Shown: positions 54,734 to 63,253 of the stretch, piece after piece
How positions within the stretch are numbered: position 1 is the stretch's first letter
How the letters are laid out: each line of letters starts with the position of its first letter
DNA from: Bacteroidales bacterium
GTDB taxonomy: Bacteria; Bacteroidota; Bacteroidia; Bacteroidales; UBA10428
NCBI GenBank assembly: GCA_016934395.1
Contig: JAFGSZ010000090.1
Location: 1 to 64,000, forward strand
Length of the DNA: 64,000 nucleotides
Direction: 5' to 3'
The notes under the pieces: model-generated
The model's database searches: none
The model's input: the letters and a program-made list of their open reading frames with translations, nothing else
What the model was told of the DNA's origin: nothing
Position numbers and translations under genes: made by a program

Positions 54734-55153
54734 ATGTCAATTAGAAAAGCAAAAGCCACCTGGAACGGCACCTTAAAAAAGGGCAGTGGAACCATGAATT
54801 TCAGTGATTACAGCGGACCTTATACTTTTATTTCGCGGTTTGAAGAGGGTAAAGGAACCAATCCTGAAGAACTAATCGGAGCAGCCCATGCAGGATGTTA
54901 TTCCATGTTTTTATCTGCCTTGCTTAGTGCGGAAAATTTAAATCCCGAAAGCGTTCAGACTTCTGCAGCAGTGCATCTGGAAAGTGACGAAGTGGGTCCG
55001 GTAATTTCAAAAATAGAGCTCAATACAGAAGTAAAATGTCCCGGGATTTCGCAGGAAAAATTTAAGGAACTTTCTGAGATTGCAAAAAAGAAATGTCCGG
55101 TATCACGGGTATTGGCTGCAACAGAAATTACACTTAGTGCAAAGCTTATTTAA
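54734..55153 (+). CDS. osmC: OsmC-type peroxiredoxin
   Basis: The 139-residue cytoplasmic protein reduces organic hydroperoxides. The two redox Cys are present: AAHAGCYSMFLSALL and AKKKCPVSRVLAAT. The N-terminal KATWNGTLKKGSGTMN and FEEGKGTNPEELIGAA are characteristic of the OsmC subgroup rather than Ohr. It lies between a TonB-receptor gene and, convergently, the MscS/permease group; osmC is often induced by osmotic and oxidative stress, fitting the osmotic theme of the neighbours (inference). Confidence 0.95.
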   Translation: MSIRKAKATWNGTLKKGSGTMNFSDYSGPYTFISRFEEGKGTNPEELIGAAHAGCYSMFLSALLSAENLNPESVQTSAAVHLESDEVGPVISKIELNTEVKCPGISQEKFKELSEIAKKKCPVSRVLAATEITLSAKLI

Positions 55154-55323: not shown

Positions 55324-56037
55324 TTATCTGCCGCTTAATTGTCCGAACCGTTTATCGAGGGCTTCCGCCAGATAATCCAAATGCTTCTGATTTCTAACCT
55401 GGACCAGTATGTTATAATGAAAAGACAAATCATCTTCGCCAACAAATTTTATATTAGGTTGTGTATTGCTAATTCGCCAGGGCGAGGTCATTAAAATATT
55501 TCTAATAGACTCTTCGGTAGATGTAACACTTTCGGTTTTTCTTGTTTTTAAAATAAAGGAATTTTTCTCAAAAGTTTTTGATTCAGTCTTTTGCGAGATA
55601 ATTTCACTCCCTAATCTTGAATAAGGAACTTTTACAAGCCTGCCCTCCTGAGTTTGCAGCGAAATATGGGTTAAATACAACGATTCCACCCTGCCTGCCA
55701 CTTCTCCAAACTGAACATGGTCCCCTTCAGCATAATTATTTTGCACCCTGAAAATTACACCGGCAATAAAATCTTTTATAAAGAACCATCCAATGAGGAC
55801 GCTTAAAATAACGATCATACAAATAATTACAAGCTTATAGTATGACTTTTCGTTAAATAAGTAATTCGCCGACCAAAACACAATGACTACCCAGGTAACT
55901 GAAACAATAAGCGGCAACATTCTGCCAACAGTTTTTAAGATAAAATATTTTTTCCCAAACCTCTTAATAACAACCTGTAAAAATTTAAGAACAAAGTAGG
56001 TTGCAGTAACAATTACCAAAACAATTATGGGTTTCAT
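55324..56037 (-). CDS. MscS-family mechanosensitive channel-like protein
   Basis: The product has 237 residues with three predicted membrane helices (about 1-20, 42-62, 68-92) and the MscS pore-lining/beta domain: WFFIKDFIAGVIFRVQNNYAEGDHVQFGEVAGRVESLYLTHI in outline, then a short alpha/beta tail. The Gly/Ala-rich TM3 of E. coli MscS is only partly conserved. It would release solutes upon membrane tension. It starts 10 bases after the transporter-ATPase gene, so the two are almost certainly co-transcribed. Confidence 0.82.
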   Translation of the reverse strand: MKPIIVLVIVTATYFVLKFLQVVIKRFGKKYFILKTVGRMLPLIVSVTWVVIVFWSANYLFNEKSYYKLVIICMIVILSVLIGWFFIKDFIAGVIFRVQNNYAEGDHVQFGEVAGRVESLYLTHISLQTQEGRLVKVPYSRLGSEIISQKTESKTFEKNSFILKTRKTESVTSTEESIRNILMTSPWRISNTQPNIKFVGEDDLSFHYNILVQVRNQKHLDYLAEALDKRFGQLSGR

Positions 56038-56047
56038 TATTTATAAT

Positions 56048-59000
56048 TTATTGGTTTTCTAATAAATATTCTGTTACAAAATTATCCATATAAGGATTGA
56101 TAACATAAACGCCACTTGATTTCTCCTTAATCAGTCCGGCTAGAAATAAGGCATCTGTTATCCTCATAATTTTCCGTTCATCTAGCATTAATACACGTTT
56201 GATTTTTGAAACTGTCATTCGTTTGTGCAATATAATCTGGTATAAAACTACATGCCAGTCGTCGTGCATGTTTTCAAACACACTGGTATTTGGTTTTTCA
56301 GGAGAAACGATCTCCAGCTGGTCATCTGAACTTGCTGTAATATGAGACACCCAGGCATAAAGGGCCGTTCCGGGATTTCCTTTTGAATAGTTAAAATATT
56401 TATTAAATAAACCGGCAAGGCGAATTTCAGAAATTCCATCTTCGTGTTTTTTGCCCAGGTTGAATTTCATGCCCCCGGAATGGTGTCTGCGCATGATCAG
56501 ATCTTTTAATTCTTCTGAATCAAAAGGCTTGCAAGATATCACACTTATAAAACTATCAGCAAGATGTTGAATTTCGTTAATACGTTGATATGCAAAAGAG
56601 TTTATATTAGCAAGAATCAGGCATTTATCGCTGAATTTTTTTATCAGGTCTAATATTAACCGTAAAACAGCAAAACCGTTTTCTGTTGATTCCCACCAGA
56701 GCTCCAAATCATGAAAAACAATAACCTTTTTATAGGGTAATTTTTCAAAAACCTCATAAGCATTTCCATGTATTTCCAGCACGTTATTTAATTCATGTTC
56801 AAATTCATGTATGTCTGCGGATCCCATTATTGGAGGAAAAATATGATAAACCTGATTCGTTTGAAAATATTTACGGGTAACATGTCTGCAAAATGCAGTT
56901 TTTCCGGAATTACGCTCACCGGTTATCAGAATTCCGCCCCGGTAACCATTGTTATAGTGAAAAATTGCAGTATTAAATTGTTGCTCTTCTTCTTTTCTAT
57001 CGATCCAAAAATCTTCGCTAATGCTTGACCGGCCACTAAAAAGATTTTTGTAATAAGATGGTATATTTTCATACACATTCGGGTTTGGGCTTACTTTATC
57101 TATAAGGTTGAGAAAAATTTCAGATGGAGAATTTCCACTTTCCTGTTCCGACAATTCGCGGGCAAGCAAAATGCCCTCGCTCTGTGAGTAAAGCAGGCGC
57201 ACAGTTTTTTTCCTAAAAAATATCTTTATATTCTCCATCCACTTATCAAAACGGCTCTTGGTCTTTTTACCCTGGTATTCCCGTATAATATGCGTTAGTT
57301 CCTTACTGCTTACAGTAATTTTATAAGAAGACAGGGGCTCAAACGTATTATCTAGATTTACATTAATAATATGCTGCAAATCTGCACTCAGCTTTTTAAT
57401 TTTAGATCGGTCTTCTTTTAACTCTTCCAGCGATTCATCAATAATTTCCCGGATAGCCTGTTTTTTACCTTCATCAGTTGGAGTTATATTTTCAAGTTCA
57501 AAATGAAGATAACTTAAATGGTCCTTTACCTGGTACGTTAATTTTCTGACTTCATGTCCCATTTTCTCAAGGTTTTCATCCAACTGCCCTATTAACCGGG
57601 AATCTATAAAATGTCTTACCATTCTTCTTACAGGAATTTCGATCACTTCACTATCGTGCGCAGATATATCGTGAACACTTGAAAACGGGGTACTATATAT
57701 CCTTATTTCTTCAGGAATTTCTTCTATTACATCCACTAAGTTTTTACTGAGTAATTCTGTAAATTCATTTACATTTAAAAAAGCACTATTAATGTTTAAC
57801 TCGGGAATCATCGTGTTGTTGTCTATCTGATCCTTTACGCTCATTAAGTTACTTCTGAATTTTTCCAGTTTGGTAAGCAGCTCTGAATTTATCACTTGAG
57901 TAATGTTTCGCAGAAGTTCAGAACTTTCGTGCCGTACTTTATTTTTCAGGTTTAAAATAACCAAATCCAGCAACAGTTTATTCGAAATATAATAGATATT
58001 ATCGTACCATTCTCCGGGAAAAGATCTGTTTTTCTCCTCCATTTCCCGATAATAAGAATTCCTTCTTTTTTTCTTAGAGATTAACTTGTTAATGTCGATC
58101 TTTTCAAGATCATTACTCAACAATTGAATATTTTTTCTAAAATCAGTTAAAATCTCGTTTTTAAAATAATGGGTATTTTGAGTTACGTTCCGGTTAATGT
58201 GGGTAATTTTTTCTAAAAGTTCCGATTGCTTATTTTCAACAAGCAGCAGGTCAATATTTCCCCGGGTAATTTCTTTCGTGAAAAACTCCATTTGGGTGTC
58301 GAGTAAAACTAACCAGTCATTAATTGAAGAAATAAATTTTAGGCCGGAGATGTTGATTTCTTTTAAAAAATCGTGTAAATATTGTTGCCGGTTTTGTTCC
58401 AGATACAAACGTACAATCTTGCGAAAATTAATATGGCTGTTTATTGTTTTTTTTGCAAATGGCCTGATTAGTCTGTTTTTTCTTTTAAACCATCGGAGTT
58501 TTCGACTGTCAGACAACCGGATATTAAAAACGCTTTTATCGTATTTTACAGAAAGTTTTTTTTGAATGCTAAGAATATTTTCACTTAATTGATTACAATA
58601 CCAGTCAATTCCGGATGCCAGCACATTTTTTTGAAATTCTATCCTTTCAGTTATAAATTCGTCAATCAGGTTTTTTACTTTAATATATATATCGTACCGT
58701 ATTTTACTAATTATTTTAGCAGTCTTGTTTTTATCTTTTATTTGGCTCGTCTTATTTAGTTCTTTATAAGCAGATAAAGCTAAAGCCTCCAACTTCTGCA
58801 TTAGGGCACTTTGTTCACTGAAAAAAGGCAGAAAGGCTTTTTTATAAAATGTATCAAGAATCTTTAAGCCATCAGAATCAAACTGTTCGAGTTTTACATT
58901 GAGAAATGGATATTTGGTGGTATTTAACGGCGGCAGTTTAATAGTTTCGGTTTTAATGGTGTTCTCCATTTTTGTAACCTGTTCGTCGCCGATAATATTG

Positions 59001-61144
59001 TAATCTTCAAAATTGTTTGAAGCATTGATCAGGAGCATGGTGCCCATTTTGGCTGTCAGTTCAGTAACTTCCTCGTAAGTTGTATTTATTTCGTGAAACT
59101 TTTTATCGGGGATCCCTACAATAGTCAGGTCGGTATTTCCTGATTCTCTCCAAATAATTTGATTTTTCGGAAGCTGGTCAATACTGTTATTTATTACTTT
59201 AATTTCCATATTCACCCTGTATTCCGATAGAATATTTTCAAGTGAATTATAGATATTATCGATCATAATACTATCGTTAACAACAACAAACAGCCTAATC
59301 TCAGGATTGGTCCAATTGGGCGAAGTTGTAAGATGCCGGATAAGATTAATGGCAAACGAAAGATTATTTCCCCAGCCGCTCCACCATATATCGATAGTTT
59401 TATTTTTACCCATTCCTCTTTGGGCATCATACTTCAGAAATACAGAATTAAAATTATTTTTTTCCAGATGTTTGATTAAGTCGGTAAATGTTTGTTTTTT
59501 ATTTTTATCCCGGCTCCATCCCATTAAAATTGTATTGGGTTCTATGCCGCTAAAACCATAGAGTCTCATTATTTCATCCATGCCGGTATATATATCGCGG
59601 CAGGCATGATAGTTTTTGAAATATCCGCTATTTTCCTTTTTCTTTTCAATAATTCCCTGTTTTCTTGGTAAAATTTCGTTTTGTGTTTCTTCTAACTGAA
59701 ATCCGGTAAGTATCCCCAGCTTTCCGGATATATCCTTGCCAAGCATAGTCATATAGGGCCTGTCGGTTTCTTCACCCGAGAACATAATTATGTTTGGGCG
59801 CCAGTTGCGGTAATGCAGCGAATCGGTCTTCAGTTTCTGCAATCCTGATTTTACAAGAGATGCCCACAAACTGCTCCAGGCATCACCCGATTGCAGCACC
59901 AGTTCTTTTCTTTTGATATAGAGATAAACAGCGCCCAAAATAAACGTTGCTCCCAGCATGGCAACAAAATCAAGTTGTATCATCACGATCATACAGGCAA
60001 TTGAGCCAATAATACTTATCCATGCAGGAGTTTTAAAAGCCGGTCTGAAATCGGCGCTTGTTAATCTTTCAAATGCACAACTGAGATTCAGAAATCCATA
60101 AGTAGTAATAAAAAAGATAGACACAATACGAGCTATTACATCTAGTTCACCAATTAGAATACCTGCTTCAGCAATTATAAAAGTCAGCAACAAGGCATTT
60201 CTGGGTTCATTTGTTTTTCCGGTTCCCCTGGCAAAAAAACGGTGGGTGATCCGGTCTGTGGCTGTGGCCTGTAAAATCCGGGGTGCGCCTAATATACTGC
60301 CAAGTGCTGACGAGAGTGTGGCTCCCCAAATACCTGCGATAACCAACTCCGGTATCCATGCGATTTTTAGCAAAATTTTCGGGTCACCGGCCAATGCTTT
60401 GTGATCAACCGTATAAGAAAAGTAAAAGGCCAGGCCGATATAAACTATCAAGCCAACCATTATAGCGGATATTGATCCCAGGGGTATTGATTTTTTAGGA
60501 TCTTTTAAATCTCCCGACATTGATACTCCGGCCTCAAAACCAGTAACAGCAGGGAAAAATATTCCAAATAAAACCATTATAGGTATAGTGGCATTTGAAT
60601 TTGTTAAGAAAGGATGTTCCGGGGCAAATTCATGCTTGCCAAAAAAGATGGAAAGCAATGAAAGTACAATAGCGGCCATAATAAAATATTGTGTTTTAAG
60701 GGCAAGGGAGGTACTTATAAAAGTAATAATCGTAACTAAAAGAAGAATAGCACTTCCGGCAATTCTTATATTATCTTTCGTTAATTCAAATCCCCAAAAG
60801 TTTAAAAAACTTTCTGAAAATCCAATCAGATAAAGGCTCACGCTAAAAGATAATCCAACAAACAAAGCCAATCCAAGTGTACCTCCTATGGGAAGGCCCA
60901 AACTTCTGGAGATCATATAATACGTGCCGCCAGCCTGAACTTTTTTATCTGTGGCAATTGAAGAAACACTTAAACCTGTAGTTATGGAAATAATATGCGC
61001 AACGATAATAATCCCGATAGTAGCATATAATCCTGATTCACCAATGATCATAGGCAGGCGCATATACATTATAACGCCCAGGATGGTAAGAATGGACGGA
61101 GTAAATACCCCTCCGAAAGTCCCGAATTTATTTGATGAGGTCAT
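56048..61144 (-). CDS. SLC12-like cation-chloride/APC transporter fused to helical region and AAA-type ATPase
   Basis: A very large membrane protein of 1698 residues. Residues about 10-425 hold about 12 transmembrane helices of the APC superfamily, starting FGTFGGVFTPSILTILGVIM as in cation-chloride cotransporters; VLFGIFFPAVTGFEAGVSMSG in the fifth/sixth helix region is also SLC12-like. A cytoplasmic SLC12-type domain follows (about 430-745, HYRNWRPNIIMFSG). Residues about 760-1330 are charged and helical, probably coiled coil. Then an ATPase: Walker A GILITGERNSGKTAF (about 1409), Walker-B-like KVIVFHDLELWW (about 1477), and a winged-helix-like tail (about 1635-1690). Ordinary bacterial SLC12-like proteins end near residue 750. 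With mscS directly downstream, an osmotic or ion-homeostasis role is likely (inference). Confidence 0.75.
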   Translation of the reverse strand: MTSSNKFGTFGGVFTPSILTILGVIMYMRLPMIIGESGLYATIGIIIVAHIISITTGLSVSSIATDKKVQAGGTYYMISRSLGLPIGGTLGLALFVGLSFSVSLYLIGFSESFLNFWGFELTKDNIRIAGSAILLLVTIITFISTSLALKTQYFIMAAIVLSLLSIFFGKHEFAPEHPFLTNSNATIPIMVLFGIFFPAVTGFEAGVSMSGDLKDPKKSIPLGSISAIMVGLIVYIGLAFYFSYTVDHKALAGDPKILLKIAWIPELVIAGIWGATLSSALGSILGAPRILQATATDRITHRFFARGTGKTNEPRNALLLTFIIAEAGILIGELDVIARIVSIFFITTYGFLNLSCAFERLTSADFRPAFKTPAWISIIGSIACMIVMIQLDFVAMLGATFILGAVYLYIKRKELVLQSGDAWSSLWASLVKSGLQKLKTDSLHYRNWRPNIIMFSGEETDRPYMTMLGKDISGKLGILTGFQLEETQNEILPRKQGIIEKKKENSGYFKNYHACRDIYTGMDEIMRLYGFSGIEPNTILMGWSRDKNKKQTFTDLIKHLEKNNFNSVFLKYDAQRGMGKNKTIDIWWSGWGNNLSFAINLIRHLTTSPNWTNPEIRLFVVVNDSIMIDNIYNSLENILSEYRVNMEIKVINNSIDQLPKNQIIWRESGNTDLTIVGIPDKKFHEINTTYEEVTELTAKMGTMLLINASNNFEDYNIIGDEQVTKMENTIKTETIKLPPLNTTKYPFLNVKLEQFDSDGLKILDTFYKKAFLPFFSEQSALMQKLEALALSAYKELNKTSQIKDKNKTAKIISKIRYDIYIKVKNLIDEFITERIEFQKNVLASGIDWYCNQLSENILSIQKKLSVKYDKSVFNIRLSDSRKLRWFKRKNRLIRPFAKKTINSHINFRKIVRLYLEQNRQQYLHDFLKEINISGLKFISSINDWLVLLDTQMEFFTKEITRGNIDLLLVENKQSELLEKITHINRNVTQNTHYFKNEILTDFRKNIQLLSNDLEKIDINKLISKKKRRNSYYREMEEKNRSFPGEWYDNIYYISNKLLLDLVILNLKNKVRHESSELLRNITQVINSELLTKLEKFRSNLMSVKDQIDNNTMIPELNINSAFLNVNEFTELLSKNLVDVIEEIPEEIRIYSTPFSSVHDISAHDSEVIEIPVRRMVRHFIDSRLIGQLDENLEKMGHEVRKLTYQVKDHLSYLHFELENITPTDEGKKQAIREIIDESLEELKEDRSKIKKLSADLQHIINVNLDNTFEPLSSYKITVSSKELTHIIREYQGKKTKSRFDKWMENIKIFFRKKTVRLLYSQSEGILLARELSEQESGNSPSEIFLNLIDKVSPNPNVYENIPSYYKNLFSGRSSISEDFWIDRKEEEQQFNTAIFHYNNGYRGGILITGERNSGKTAFCRHVTRKYFQTNQVYHIFPPIMGSADIHEFEHELNNVLEIHGNAYEVFEKLPYKKVIVFHDLELWWESTENGFAVLRLILDLIKKFSDKCLILANINSFAYQRINEIQHLADSFISVISCKPFDSEELKDLIMRRHHSGGMKFNLGKKHEDGISEIRLAGLFNKYFNYSKGNPGTALYAWVSHITASSDDQLEIVSPEKPNTSVFENMHDDWHVVLYQIILHKRMTVSKIKRVLMLDERKIMRITDALFLAGLIKEKSSGVYVINPYMDNFVTEYLLENQ

Positions 61145-61246: not shown

Positions 61247-63226
61247 CTAATTTTCAGAAGTCTTTATTTTTGCAGCTTCATCGAAGTATTTTTTTGCTTC
61301 CGCGATGTTTCCCATTCGCTGGTAAGTTACTCCAATATTGATAACATTCTGTGCGTCGGATGGATCGAGTTTCATTGCCTGTATTAAAAAATTCAACGAA
61401 TTTTCAAAGTCACCGTTTATACCATATGCTACTCCGAGATCTTTATTTATCTGAATTCCCGAAGGATTTAATGTGTAGGCCTTATTTAAATAATATAGTG
61501 AGGAATCAATTTCTTGTTTAACCTTACCGTAAATATTCCCAAGCTTATAAAATGCCTCCCACCGGTTTGGATTAAACAGGGCAAGCTCTTTATAAATTAG
61601 AATTTGTTTGTCGATATTTTCTGTTTTATTTAAAATCAGGTTAATATTATTGTAAACATTCTCGTTCCATGGATTGTTTTCCAGAATTTTTTTATAGTAA
61701 TAATAGGTGCTGTCAATGTTTTTATCCCGGTCATAATATGCATTTCCCAGCAATAACAAAGCATCGGCATAATTAGGATGAATTTTTACCGATCGTTGCA
61801 GATAATAAACTGACTGGTCAAGCAGTGCTTTTTTTACTGTTGGATTTTTCTCGGATTTGGCCTTTTCAATAAGCGCCCCTCCGGCAGTACAATTGCTTTT
61901 TGCGCTATTATATGAAGTAAGAACATCAGTGGTAAATAAAGTATAATCGTTTTTCCAGACCTTGTTCCTGGTATATGTTTTAATAGAAAACAAAATTACA
62001 ATGGGAACCAGGATCAAATATAGATAAATTTGATTTTTCTGAGTGAATTTCACAAAAATTGATTTAAGCAAAATAGCCACCAGTATCACAAATCCAACCG
62101 AAGGAAAATAAAGAAACCGTTCATTCATAAATGTACCGATATTAACCAGCAGGTTAGAAAATGGAATTAATGCCACAATATAAAAAAGCAGGGCATAGGC
62201 CAGGGGATTTTTTTGCGGGTAAAGCAATCCAATTAACACTAACATCAGGAGGTATCCCAATCCCGGCAGAATAACCCAGAAATCTTCAAAATTTTGAAGG
62301 GCTATGTGGTATGGATAATAATCATAGGTTTGGGGATGGGGAAATACCAGAAGTTTAAAATATCGTCCGAGTACGTAAATTATGGTCGCGAGCCGCTGAT
62401 TTGAAGTGGCATATAAAAACGGATTATTCATCAGTTCCTGTGAAACAGCCTGGCCTGTTCCGGTTACCGTTTGCCTGATAATAAAATAGAGTAAGGCAGC
62501 AACCAACATAGGATACAACCCTGTAATAATACTTTTTAAAGAATTATTCCTGAAAAACCATGCTGTTAATGGAACAATTGCTAAAAAAACAGCAGCATTC
62601 TCTTTGGAAAGCAGCGCCAGGAAAAAAGATAGAAAAACAGGAATCAGGAGAATGTATTTTTTTGTTTCAAGAAGCCTTAGATAACCCATCAGGGTGAACA
62701 AAGAAAAAAGCAGGGCAAGTATTTCATCGCGTCCTTTAATGTTAGCTACTACCTCAGTATGTATAGGATGTACTGCAAATAAAAGGGCTGCGATAAATCC
62801 CAATTGCATAAACCAGGGTTTAAACAATTCATTAAAAAGCCGGGAAATCAATATATACAGTAATACAACGGTAAATGCATATAGTAACACATTTATCAGA
62901 TGATTGATCGTAGGATTTTCTCCAAAAAACTGATATTCGATGGCAAAAGTTGCTATAGATAACGGCCTGTATCTTCCACCGGGCACAAGGTCTTTTTTTT
63001 GTCCGAAAAATCCGGTAAATGAATCTTCTGAGAATATGCTCTTCAATCCATGTACACCCTTTTTTGTATAATCGTTTAGGGTAATGGTAATGGCATCATC
63101 AAGGGCATAATTGTTAAGCAGGGTGTTGCTATATAATATGCATGTAAAAGCAAAAAGGAGTATGGCCGGGCAGTAATGATTGAATGTTGATTTTACAGAT
63201 TGATTATCAGGGTTCAATTTCTTCAT
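61247..63226 (-). CDS. TMTC-like membrane glycosyltransferase with TPR repeats
   Basis: The ATG at 63226 is preferred over a TTG six bases earlier. The N-terminal part (about 20-420) has about ten membrane helices with an early acidic motif in the first loop (NNYALDDAITITLNDY), typical of GT-C enzymes, and the TMTC hallmark GGRYRPLSIATFAIEY with INVLLYAF. The C-terminal part (about 425-655) has five or six TPRs, such as YADALLLLGNAYYD and PSDAQNVINIGVTYQRMG. Eukaryotic TMTC proteins are O-mannosyltransferases; bacterial relatives are poorly characterised. The TPRs would face the periplasm. The MFS gene is 27 bases upstream. Confidence 0.75.
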   Translation of the reverse strand: MKKLNPDNQSVKSTFNHYCPAILLFAFTCILYSNTLLNNYALDDAITITLNDYTKKGVHGLKSIFSEDSFTGFFGQKKDLVPGGRYRPLSIATFAIEYQFFGENPTINHLINVLLYAFTVVLLYILISRLFNELFKPWFMQLGFIAALLFAVHPIHTEVVANIKGRDEILALLFSLFTLMGYLRLLETKKYILLIPVFLSFFLALLSKENAAVFLAIVPLTAWFFRNNSLKSIITGLYPMLVAALLYFIIRQTVTGTGQAVSQELMNNPFLYATSNQRLATIIYVLGRYFKLLVFPHPQTYDYYPYHIALQNFEDFWVILPGLGYLLMLVLIGLLYPQKNPLAYALLFYIVALIPFSNLLVNIGTFMNERFLYFPSVGFVILVAILLKSIFVKFTQKNQIYLYLILVPIVILFSIKTYTRNKVWKNDYTLFTTDVLTSYNSAKSNCTAGGALIEKAKSEKNPTVKKALLDQSVYYLQRSVKIHPNYADALLLLGNAYYDRDKNIDSTYYYYKKILENNPWNENVYNNINLILNKTENIDKQILIYKELALFNPNRWEAFYKLGNIYGKVKQEIDSSLYYLNKAYTLNPSGIQINKDLGVAYGINGDFENSLNFLIQAMKLDPSDAQNVINIGVTYQRMGNIAEAKKYFDEAAKIKTSEN

Positions 63227-63253
63227 TTCCAAAAGTATGTTGCAATAAATATA

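Follow-up and report, generated by a model that had tools for sequence, protein, structure and literature searches.

A helical AAA+ ATPase module paired with an MscS-family protein and joined to exchangeable ion carriers: a candidate ion-homeostasis unit in Bacteroidota

What can an ion carrier gain from being joined, in one protein, to an ATPase, and why should a gene of the MscS channel family follow it? The question is raised by a locus on contig JAFGSZ010000090.1 (assembly GCA_016934395.1) of a Bacteroidales bacterium of the UBA10428 lineage, of which a stretch of 64,000 nucleotides, hereafter the window, was analysed. Here one gene encodes an SLC12-type carrier, a long helical region, an AAA+ ATPase and a winged helix, and the gene of an MscS-family protein lies directly downstream. 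The conserved core of this system is the ATPase together with the MscS-family protein, and the ion carriers are exchangeable, because the pairing holds where the SLC12 carrier is missing and because relatives of the fusion without the ATPase are also without MscS. We consider it somewhat better than an even chance that the locus encodes an ion-homeostasis unit with an AAA+ switch at its base, in which the helical-ATPase module and the MscS-family protein set the activity of the fused or adjacent carrier.

The fusion of carrier, helices and ATPase that the original prediction described is real: the gene is a single open frame of 1698 codons with no internal stop, and the gap between it and the MscS-like gene is the predicted 10 base pairs (bp). 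A frameshift, or two genes read as one, is ruled out by six unfragmented full-length homologs of identical architecture. The features of the locus, in window coordinates, are the following.

56048..61144, minus strand: fusion gene of SLC12-type carrier, helical region, AAA+ ATPase and winged helix, 1698 amino acids (aa)
59900..61132, minus strand: SLC12-type transmembrane (TM) carrier, residues 5-415 (Pfam AA_permease, KCC4 match, alignment to NKCC1 TM8-10, site residues)
59009..59827, minus strand: SLC12 cytoplasmic C-domain, residues 440-712, containing RNWRP (Pfam and PDB sequence match)
57149..58912, minus strand: long antiparallel helical region, residues 745-1332 (AF2 model, hhalign)
56303..57058, minus strand: AAA+ ATPase domain, residues 1363-1614 (Pfam hits of homologs, AF2 model, structure matches)
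56897..56920, minus strand: Walker A, GERNSGKT, residues 1409-1416
56702..56713, minus strand: Walker B region, HDLE, residues 1478-1481, with His at the first acidic position
56483..56488, minus strand: family signature, Arg1553-His1554
56057..56287, minus strand: winged-helix tail, residues 1620-1696 (AF2 model and structure match)
55324..56037, minus strand: MscS-family partner, 237 aa, with three TM helices, a beta domain and an alpha-beta domain (Pfam, AF2, structure match)

Residues 745-1698 were modelled with AF2 from a 64-sequence alignment (mean pLDDT 87.5, pTM 0.56). The model runs in long antiparallel helices to about residue 1332, followed by an AAA+ alpha/beta core and, at the end, a winged helix, so both the ATPase with its Walker A motif and the winged-helix-like tail of the original prediction are borne out. 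Hydrophobic segments over the threshold are absent beyond residue 411. Foldseek matches the model to Orc1/Cdc6-type AAA+ proteins (E 7.4e-8, target-normalised TM score 0.47), as does a structure match with Z 15.4 over 318 residues and a root-mean-square deviation (rmsd) of 5.2; the types matched are Orc1/Cdc6, RuvB, RFC, TnsC and Apaf-1 AAA+ proteins. An AAA+ fold with a C-terminal winged helix, together with Walker A, places the domain in the Orc1/Cdc6 group. The profile search suggested earlier gave a divided answer. AAA hits on the window protein alone are weak and under the cut-off (E 0.011-0.11); AAA_16 hits in the homologs L007 (1.3e-5) and L011 (4.9e-6) are stronger and still under it; and the ATPase core of L148, a relative fused to an antiporter, passes AAA_22 with 32.5 against 27 bits. 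Over the ATPase and helical part, every Pfam and NCBIfam model stays under its curated cut-off in those SLC12-fused and carrier-free proteins that were scanned. The idea that residues 1390-1600 hold no ATPase fold was thus rejected on the predicted structure, though the Pfam hits of the window protein stay under cut-off. The helical region has an apparent internal two-fold repeat, whose halves align at 94% (hhalign, E 1.2e-7).

The same fusion, and its link to MscS, had been suggested as things to seek in other genomes. Among 59 relatives searched, own genome apart, 7 have the full-length fusion (G039 was matched in two pieces, in one open frame). A scan of genome contigs held at least 532 relatives of the query among its candidates, and in 68 of the best 80 loci, which were kept, carrier and ATPase share one open reading frame (ORF). 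The hosts are mostly Bacteroidota, judged by the record titles of metagenome-assembled genomes (MAGs), in which binning errors are possible; other titles name Myxococcales, SAR324, Gemmatimonadetes, Marinimicrobia, Calditrichota and Ignavibacteriae MAGs. One locus, L079, belongs to the cultured Flexithrix dorotheae DSM 6795. Four loci whose titles read Myxococcales or Polyangiaceae (L094, L102, L119, L136) and one whose title reads proteobacterium (L127) group in the 134-row ATPase tree (support 93, not starred). In a 56-row tree the SLC12 fusions fall on one side of a branch, with support for a single origin of only 65.

The linkage is conserved: an MscS-like ORF lies directly downstream in 68 of the 77 SLC12 fusion loci with distinct ATPase sequences. 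This count adds to a scripted 66 of 75 the loci L037 and L039, whose carrier was unseen and which were counted as fusions by their open frames (1712 and 1687 codons) and by their place among the fusions in the ATPase tree. The six partners tested (P0002, L006, L007, L011, L012, L085) all score above the cut-off of Pfam MS_channel_2nd. Nine fusions are without a direct MscS gene: L100 lies at a contig end, L142 has a broken ATPase frame with MscS further on, and seven are true absences. In the ATPase tree five of the seven, namely L010, L089, L091, L092 and L101, cluster together (support 92, not starred); the gene is retained in L087 and L093, close relatives of this cluster, a pattern that speaks for a single loss. 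At L010:1-1182, minus strand, a gene for an AAA_14 ATPase (Pfam E 4.7e-21) stands after the fusion in place of MscS.

As a control, 24 SLC12 carriers that lack the ATPase were taken, with about 1.5 kb of flank read; 3 of them (L002, L028, L032) have MscS nearby. The window's own genome has three ATPase-less SLC12 carriers (L002-L004), and it is L002 that an MscS gene adjoins. Three further loci (L121, L130, L140) encode a carrier with the helical region, 1310-1345 aa, that ends after the helices, and no ATPase or MscS hit occurs in the sequence read, at least 1.5 kb past the stop; neither was found in the sequence read around L141, a carrier alone. The first three show a natural co-loss of ATPase and MscS, perhaps in few events, since L130 and L140 have, by eye, a common next gene.

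The converse arrangement, an ATPase free of the carrier, is also common. Besides the fusion, the own genome encodes another ATPase of the family, 989 aa long and carrier-free, with the gene of a canonical 311-aa MscS 7 bp later, so that both ATPase paralogs are followed by one of its six MscS-domain genes. Across the phylum, 76 of the 395 genomes searched have the ATPase, own genome counted. Of the 53 ATPases classed as standalone, 49 have MscS as a direct neighbour: it lies on the downstream side in 36 and on the upstream side in 13 (L171 included), so the link survives rearrangement. Many of these 53 are from family f62; one (L063) runs off its contig, and another (L151) has a hydrophobic N-terminal region (residues 7-397) with no Pfam match. 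The four without MscS are L178 and L179, at contig starts, and L174 and L175, where an unassigned gene of 185-187 aa, considered as a reduced MscS and given 22% by hhalign, lies between the ATPase and an antiporter instead.

What, then, is the MscS-family protein? The 237-aa partner in the window has the order TM3, beta domain, alpha-beta domain that is typical of MscS. Its AF2 model (pLDDT 93.3) has TM helices at 2-27, 32-61 and 67-99, a beta domain at 107-138 and an alpha-beta domain at 158-231. It gives Pfam MS_channel_2nd at E 2.4e-12, a profile match to MscS 2vv5 at E 3.6e-19 and a best structure match to MscS 7onl (Z 12.1, 231 residues, rmsd 13.2). The Gly/Ala-rich pore helix TM3a is not found in it: the Gly/Ala/Ser fraction is 0.125 in the window partner and on average 0.19 over 55 fusion partners (range 0-0.56), compared with 0.50 in E. 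coli MscS. In the three loci L067, L072 and L103, a single clade of the ATPase tree (support 100), the downstream gene overlaps the end of the fusion gene by 4 bp; its product of 111 aa has no membrane segment, and the MscS alpha-beta domain is all that it aligns to (hhalign 97%, E 6e-11). With the pore pattern lost and the cytosolic domain alone in three loci, a simple release valve is doubtful, and the partner resembles a subunit or adaptor more closely than it does a free valve. The alpha-beta domain, as the part that persists, is a candidate docking site for the ATPase.

The best surviving alternative is nonetheless such a valve: an influx carrier and a tension-gated release channel that share an operon and act independently, the ATPase sensing volume for the carrier alone. 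Adjacency of the genes and the MscS topology of the partner agree with this, and partners of standalone ATPases do keep a canonical pore helix (fraction 0.46, in the 17 of 27 that were measurable). We regard it as unlikely, given that the ATPase keeps its MscS neighbour in the 49 standalone loci where there is no SLC12 influx carrier, that MscS is missing where the ATPase is missing (L121, L130, L140), and that the fusion partners have a degenerate TM3 or, in the related three, no membrane part at all.

The ATPase module also meets other carriers. In six loci (L146-L150 and L184, the last nearly identical to L150) it follows an antiporter domain within a protein of 1495-1501 aa. Pfam Na_H_Exchanger is found in L148, the only one scanned, at E 3.7e-21, with the NCBIfam CPA2 model under cut-off; four others align to L148. 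An MscS gene follows in 6/6, then a TrkH gene (by Pfam in L147, L148 and L150) and then a TrkA gene (by Pfam in L148 and by similar gene lengths in the remaining loci). Upstream of each of these fusions is a gene of 414-422 aa with several hydrophobic segments, which may encode another, divergent antiporter-like protein; Pfam gave no match for the one tested. At L165 and L173 the ATPase gene is followed by a small MscS-like gene and this in turn by a Na_H_Exchanger gene, and at L151 a TrkH gene lies just upstream of the ATPase. Clustering the neighbours of 68 SLC12 fusion loci gave only two families present in at least 10 loci, the MscS partner and an antiporter, the latter in 10 of the 68, divergently transcribed about 117 bp upstream; the one tested, that of L067, matches Pfam at E 2.4e-21, with the K+/H+ antiporter model under cut-off. 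The helical parts, taken without the ATPase, align among the fusion, standalone and antiporter-fusion versions (hhalign E 3.1e-17, 9.4e-18 and 2.7e-13), while reversed-profile controls fail (E 0.17 and 0.089). On these alignments we take the three versions to be one family with one architecture, that is, an optional carrier, a helical stalk, AAA+ and winged helix.

A module that pairs with several unrelated membrane proteins, has an AAA+ fold and carries long helical arms might also be a chaperone for the assembly, insertion or quality control of MscS-family proteins and ion carriers, with no part in regulating their activity. Covalent fusion to two unrelated carrier families would be odd for a chaperone, and many standalone versions have degenerate Walker residues; this account therefore seems distinctly improbable.

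The same residues bear on what the ATPase does with its nucleotide. Among fusions, the Walker A Lys is kept in 75 of 76 rows and Gly1414 in 76/76; the family signature is equally firm, with Arg1553 in 75/76 and His1554 in 76/76. In the standalones the Walker A Lys is replaced or unaligned in 24 of 52 rows (28 have K, 14 R). At position 1478, the first acid of Walker B, only 36 of the 76 fusion rows have D or E (D25, N20, H14, E11), and the window protein reads H1478-D1479-L-E1481. ATP binding in the fusions is thus likely, and hydrolysis, given the loss of Lys in standalones and the degenerate first acid, is uncertain, a combination that would fit a switch better than a motor. One might go further and see the ATPase domain as a structural remnant, the unit being an oligomer scaffold that uses nucleotide for stability only. 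His or Asn at the first acid position in 34 of 76 fusions and the Lys losses in standalones would agree with it, and the near-invariant Lys and Gly1414 of the fusions speak against it, so that we give this view little credence.

Family f62 gives a hint of how the module is inherited. The ATPase is present in 47 of its 92 genomes, as one copy in nearly all of them; by genus, where several genomes are incomplete, it occurs in 10/10 of g122, 3/3 of g126, 8/28 of g137 and 0/9 of g199. Such a distribution resembles inheritance by clade, with losses, more than it does a defence island. In seven f62 loci (L049, L052-L054, L057, L059, L062) the ATPase frame is about 450 codons long (298-428 aa from the first start) and its ORF has no long helical arm, which may be lost; MscS still follows. 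STAND-like defence, in which an ATPase triggered by an invader opens the MscS-family pore or the carrier and kills the cell, can point to weak NACHT, nSTAND and AAA_16 hits in relatives, to Apaf-1 among the fold matches and to the uneven presence in f62, and is very hard to credit when PADLOC matches no system (weak hits only, best E 1.3e-4), nearly every ATPase-bearing f62 genome has a single copy and the identified neighbours are ion carriers.

Which ions might the window's carrier move? Residues 5-712 form a cation-chloride-cotransporter module by Pfam, NCBIfam and PDB sequence matches. Pfam AA_permease covers residues 13-451 (E 2.6e-44); the NCBIfam K-Cl cotransporter model TIGR00930 reaches E 8e-114 and 381.7 bits, under its curated cut-off of 953.4; and the Pfam SLC12 C-domain is weak in the window protein (22.9 bits, cut-off 27) and over the cut-off in L007 (27.6) and L011 (35.4). 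An APC-type carrier domain followed by an SLC12 cytoplasmic C-domain assigns the protein to SLC12. A KCC-like carrier was considered on account of KCC4, the best PDB sequence match of the whole module (E 6e-77), and the TM1-TM6 part alone is still closest to KCC3; the assignment was revised to NKCC-like on the Na+ site. The K+ and Na+ site residues of NKCC1, with their roles as reported in PMC7889885, map to Y105, P198, T201, A275, S278 and S279 of the window protein, whose listed carrier residues also include Y349. The K+ site Tyr of TM3 (Y105) and the Na+ site Ser-Ser of TM8 (S278, S279) are those of the NKCC-like subtype, and TM8 (ATLSSAL) aligns gap-free with NKCC1, for which reason Na+-driven uptake of K+ and Cl- by an NKCC-like Na+-K+-Cl- symporter is our best guess. 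Across 87 distinct rows (88 fusion-type carriers minus L185, a second copy of L012, with the ATPase-less L121, L130, L140 and L141 included), the Tyr is kept in 84 of the 85 that have a letter there, the Thr in 83/87 and both Ser in 86/87, L012 being the exception for both Tyr and Ser-Ser.

How might the parts of the proposed ion-homeostasis unit work together? In the window, the unit would use the Na+ gradient to bring in K+ and Cl- and so build turgor. The MscS-family protein would report membrane tension or packing, its cytosolic alpha-beta domain docking the ATPase; binding of ATP or ADP would then alter the ATPase and the long helical stalk; and the stalk would act on the cytoplasmic C-domain of the carrier, turning transport on or off. 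In versions with a canonical MscS, the stalk may gate the channel as well. The volume-regulation unit of the original prediction thus survives in part. An ion or volume role is supported by context, since the module is linked to antiporters and TrkH/TrkA, and the gating, the direction of transport and any ATP hydrolysis are what we infer from there. The notion of influx and release parts encoded together is not borne out in that form, the core being ATPase plus MscS, with an exchangeable carrier and a partner whose pore pattern is lost.

Several observations weigh against this account. Fold matches to the model leave the helical region uncovered, so the fold of the presumed stalk is unmatched, and the Walker A and Walker B losses described above make ATP hydrolysis uncertain. 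Carrier and helices persist without the ATPase in L121, L130 and L140. The NKCC-like site is kept by non-fused rows too (Tyr 24/25, Ser-Ser 23/25, for 24 carriers and L021, a fusion whose sequence is partial), so it marks the bacterial family and not the fusion. MscS is absent from readable downstream sequence in the seven fusion loci L010, L084, L089, L091, L092, L101 and L138, and the gene is therefore not obligatory. The linkage counts themselves come from loci related to one another, that is, from non-independent events, and from MscS profiles built from the partners, the first detection having been made with a six-partner profile.

A broader claim can be ventured, to which we give rather less than even chances: that the module is a carrier-independent AAA+ switch with an MscS-family subunit for tension sensing or docking, that it has become attached to no fewer than three unrelated sorts of ion transporter (the SLC12 symporter, CPA antiporters and the TrkH/TrkA operon), and that it gates them by nucleotide state. 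If this is true, the MscS-family protein would be explained as a signalling subunit and not a valve, and the system would be, to our knowledge, the first AAA+-gated secondary ion transporter. Little is known of how bacteria control their secondary ion carriers as cell volume changes, and few physiological roles have been assigned to the bacterial relatives of the NKCC/KCC carriers, which are of medical importance. Here a widespread module joins such a carrier covalently to a putative ATP switch and an MscS-family protein, and one two-gene operon suffices to test the question. The module could account for some of the MscS paralogs that bacteria carry and that are still uncharacterised, and its recurrence with other carriers and channels suggests an undescribed ATP-dependent switch for the control of cell salt and volume.

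Two further genes flank the unit in the window. An OsmC-family stress gene (54734-55153, plus strand, Pfam E 9.4e-20) is convergent with the mscS-like gene. A gene that shares the strand of the fusion gene and lies some 100 bp upstream of it encodes a 661-aa protein with C-terminal TPR repeats (61247-63232, minus strand).

It remains to compare the unit with known systems. The original prediction knew of no described system with this arrangement, and we likewise found none, nor any prior description of the assembled system, in the open-access literature searched, a scope that excludes bioRxiv preprints and most subscription papers. The SLC12 cotransporters (NKCC1, KCC1-4) resemble it in the sequence of carrier and C-domain, as in the match to KCC4, and in the K+/Na+ site residues; among the 41 solved sequences matched, none is named as bearing a helical AAA+ module. 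The C-domain structure of a prokaryotic cation-chloride cotransporter homolog was reportedly determined by Warmuth in 2009, and we know of no MscS partner of any SLC12 carrier. The MscS family (E. coli MscS, YnaI, MscK) shares topology and fold with the 237-aa partner, which differs in the loss of the Gly/Ala pore-helix pattern, in the alpha-beta domain standing alone in three loci and in the operon link to an AAA+ ATPase. Orc1/Cdc6, RuvB, TnsC and STAND-type AAA+ proteins have the same AAA+ core and winged helix; the ATPase here differs from them in its N-terminal helical region of about 590 residues, its fusion or linkage to membrane carriers and its Arg-His signature. A functional likeness is seen in TrkH-TrkA, in which K+ uptake is regulated by nucleotides through a cytosolic nucleotide-binding protein, and whose genes adjoin the antiporter-fused version of the module. 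TrkA has an RCK fold and not an AAA+ fold, and it regulates a channel-like K+ transporter and not a symporter. The parts of the present unit thus belong to known superfamilies; within the literature covered, what is new is their assembly.

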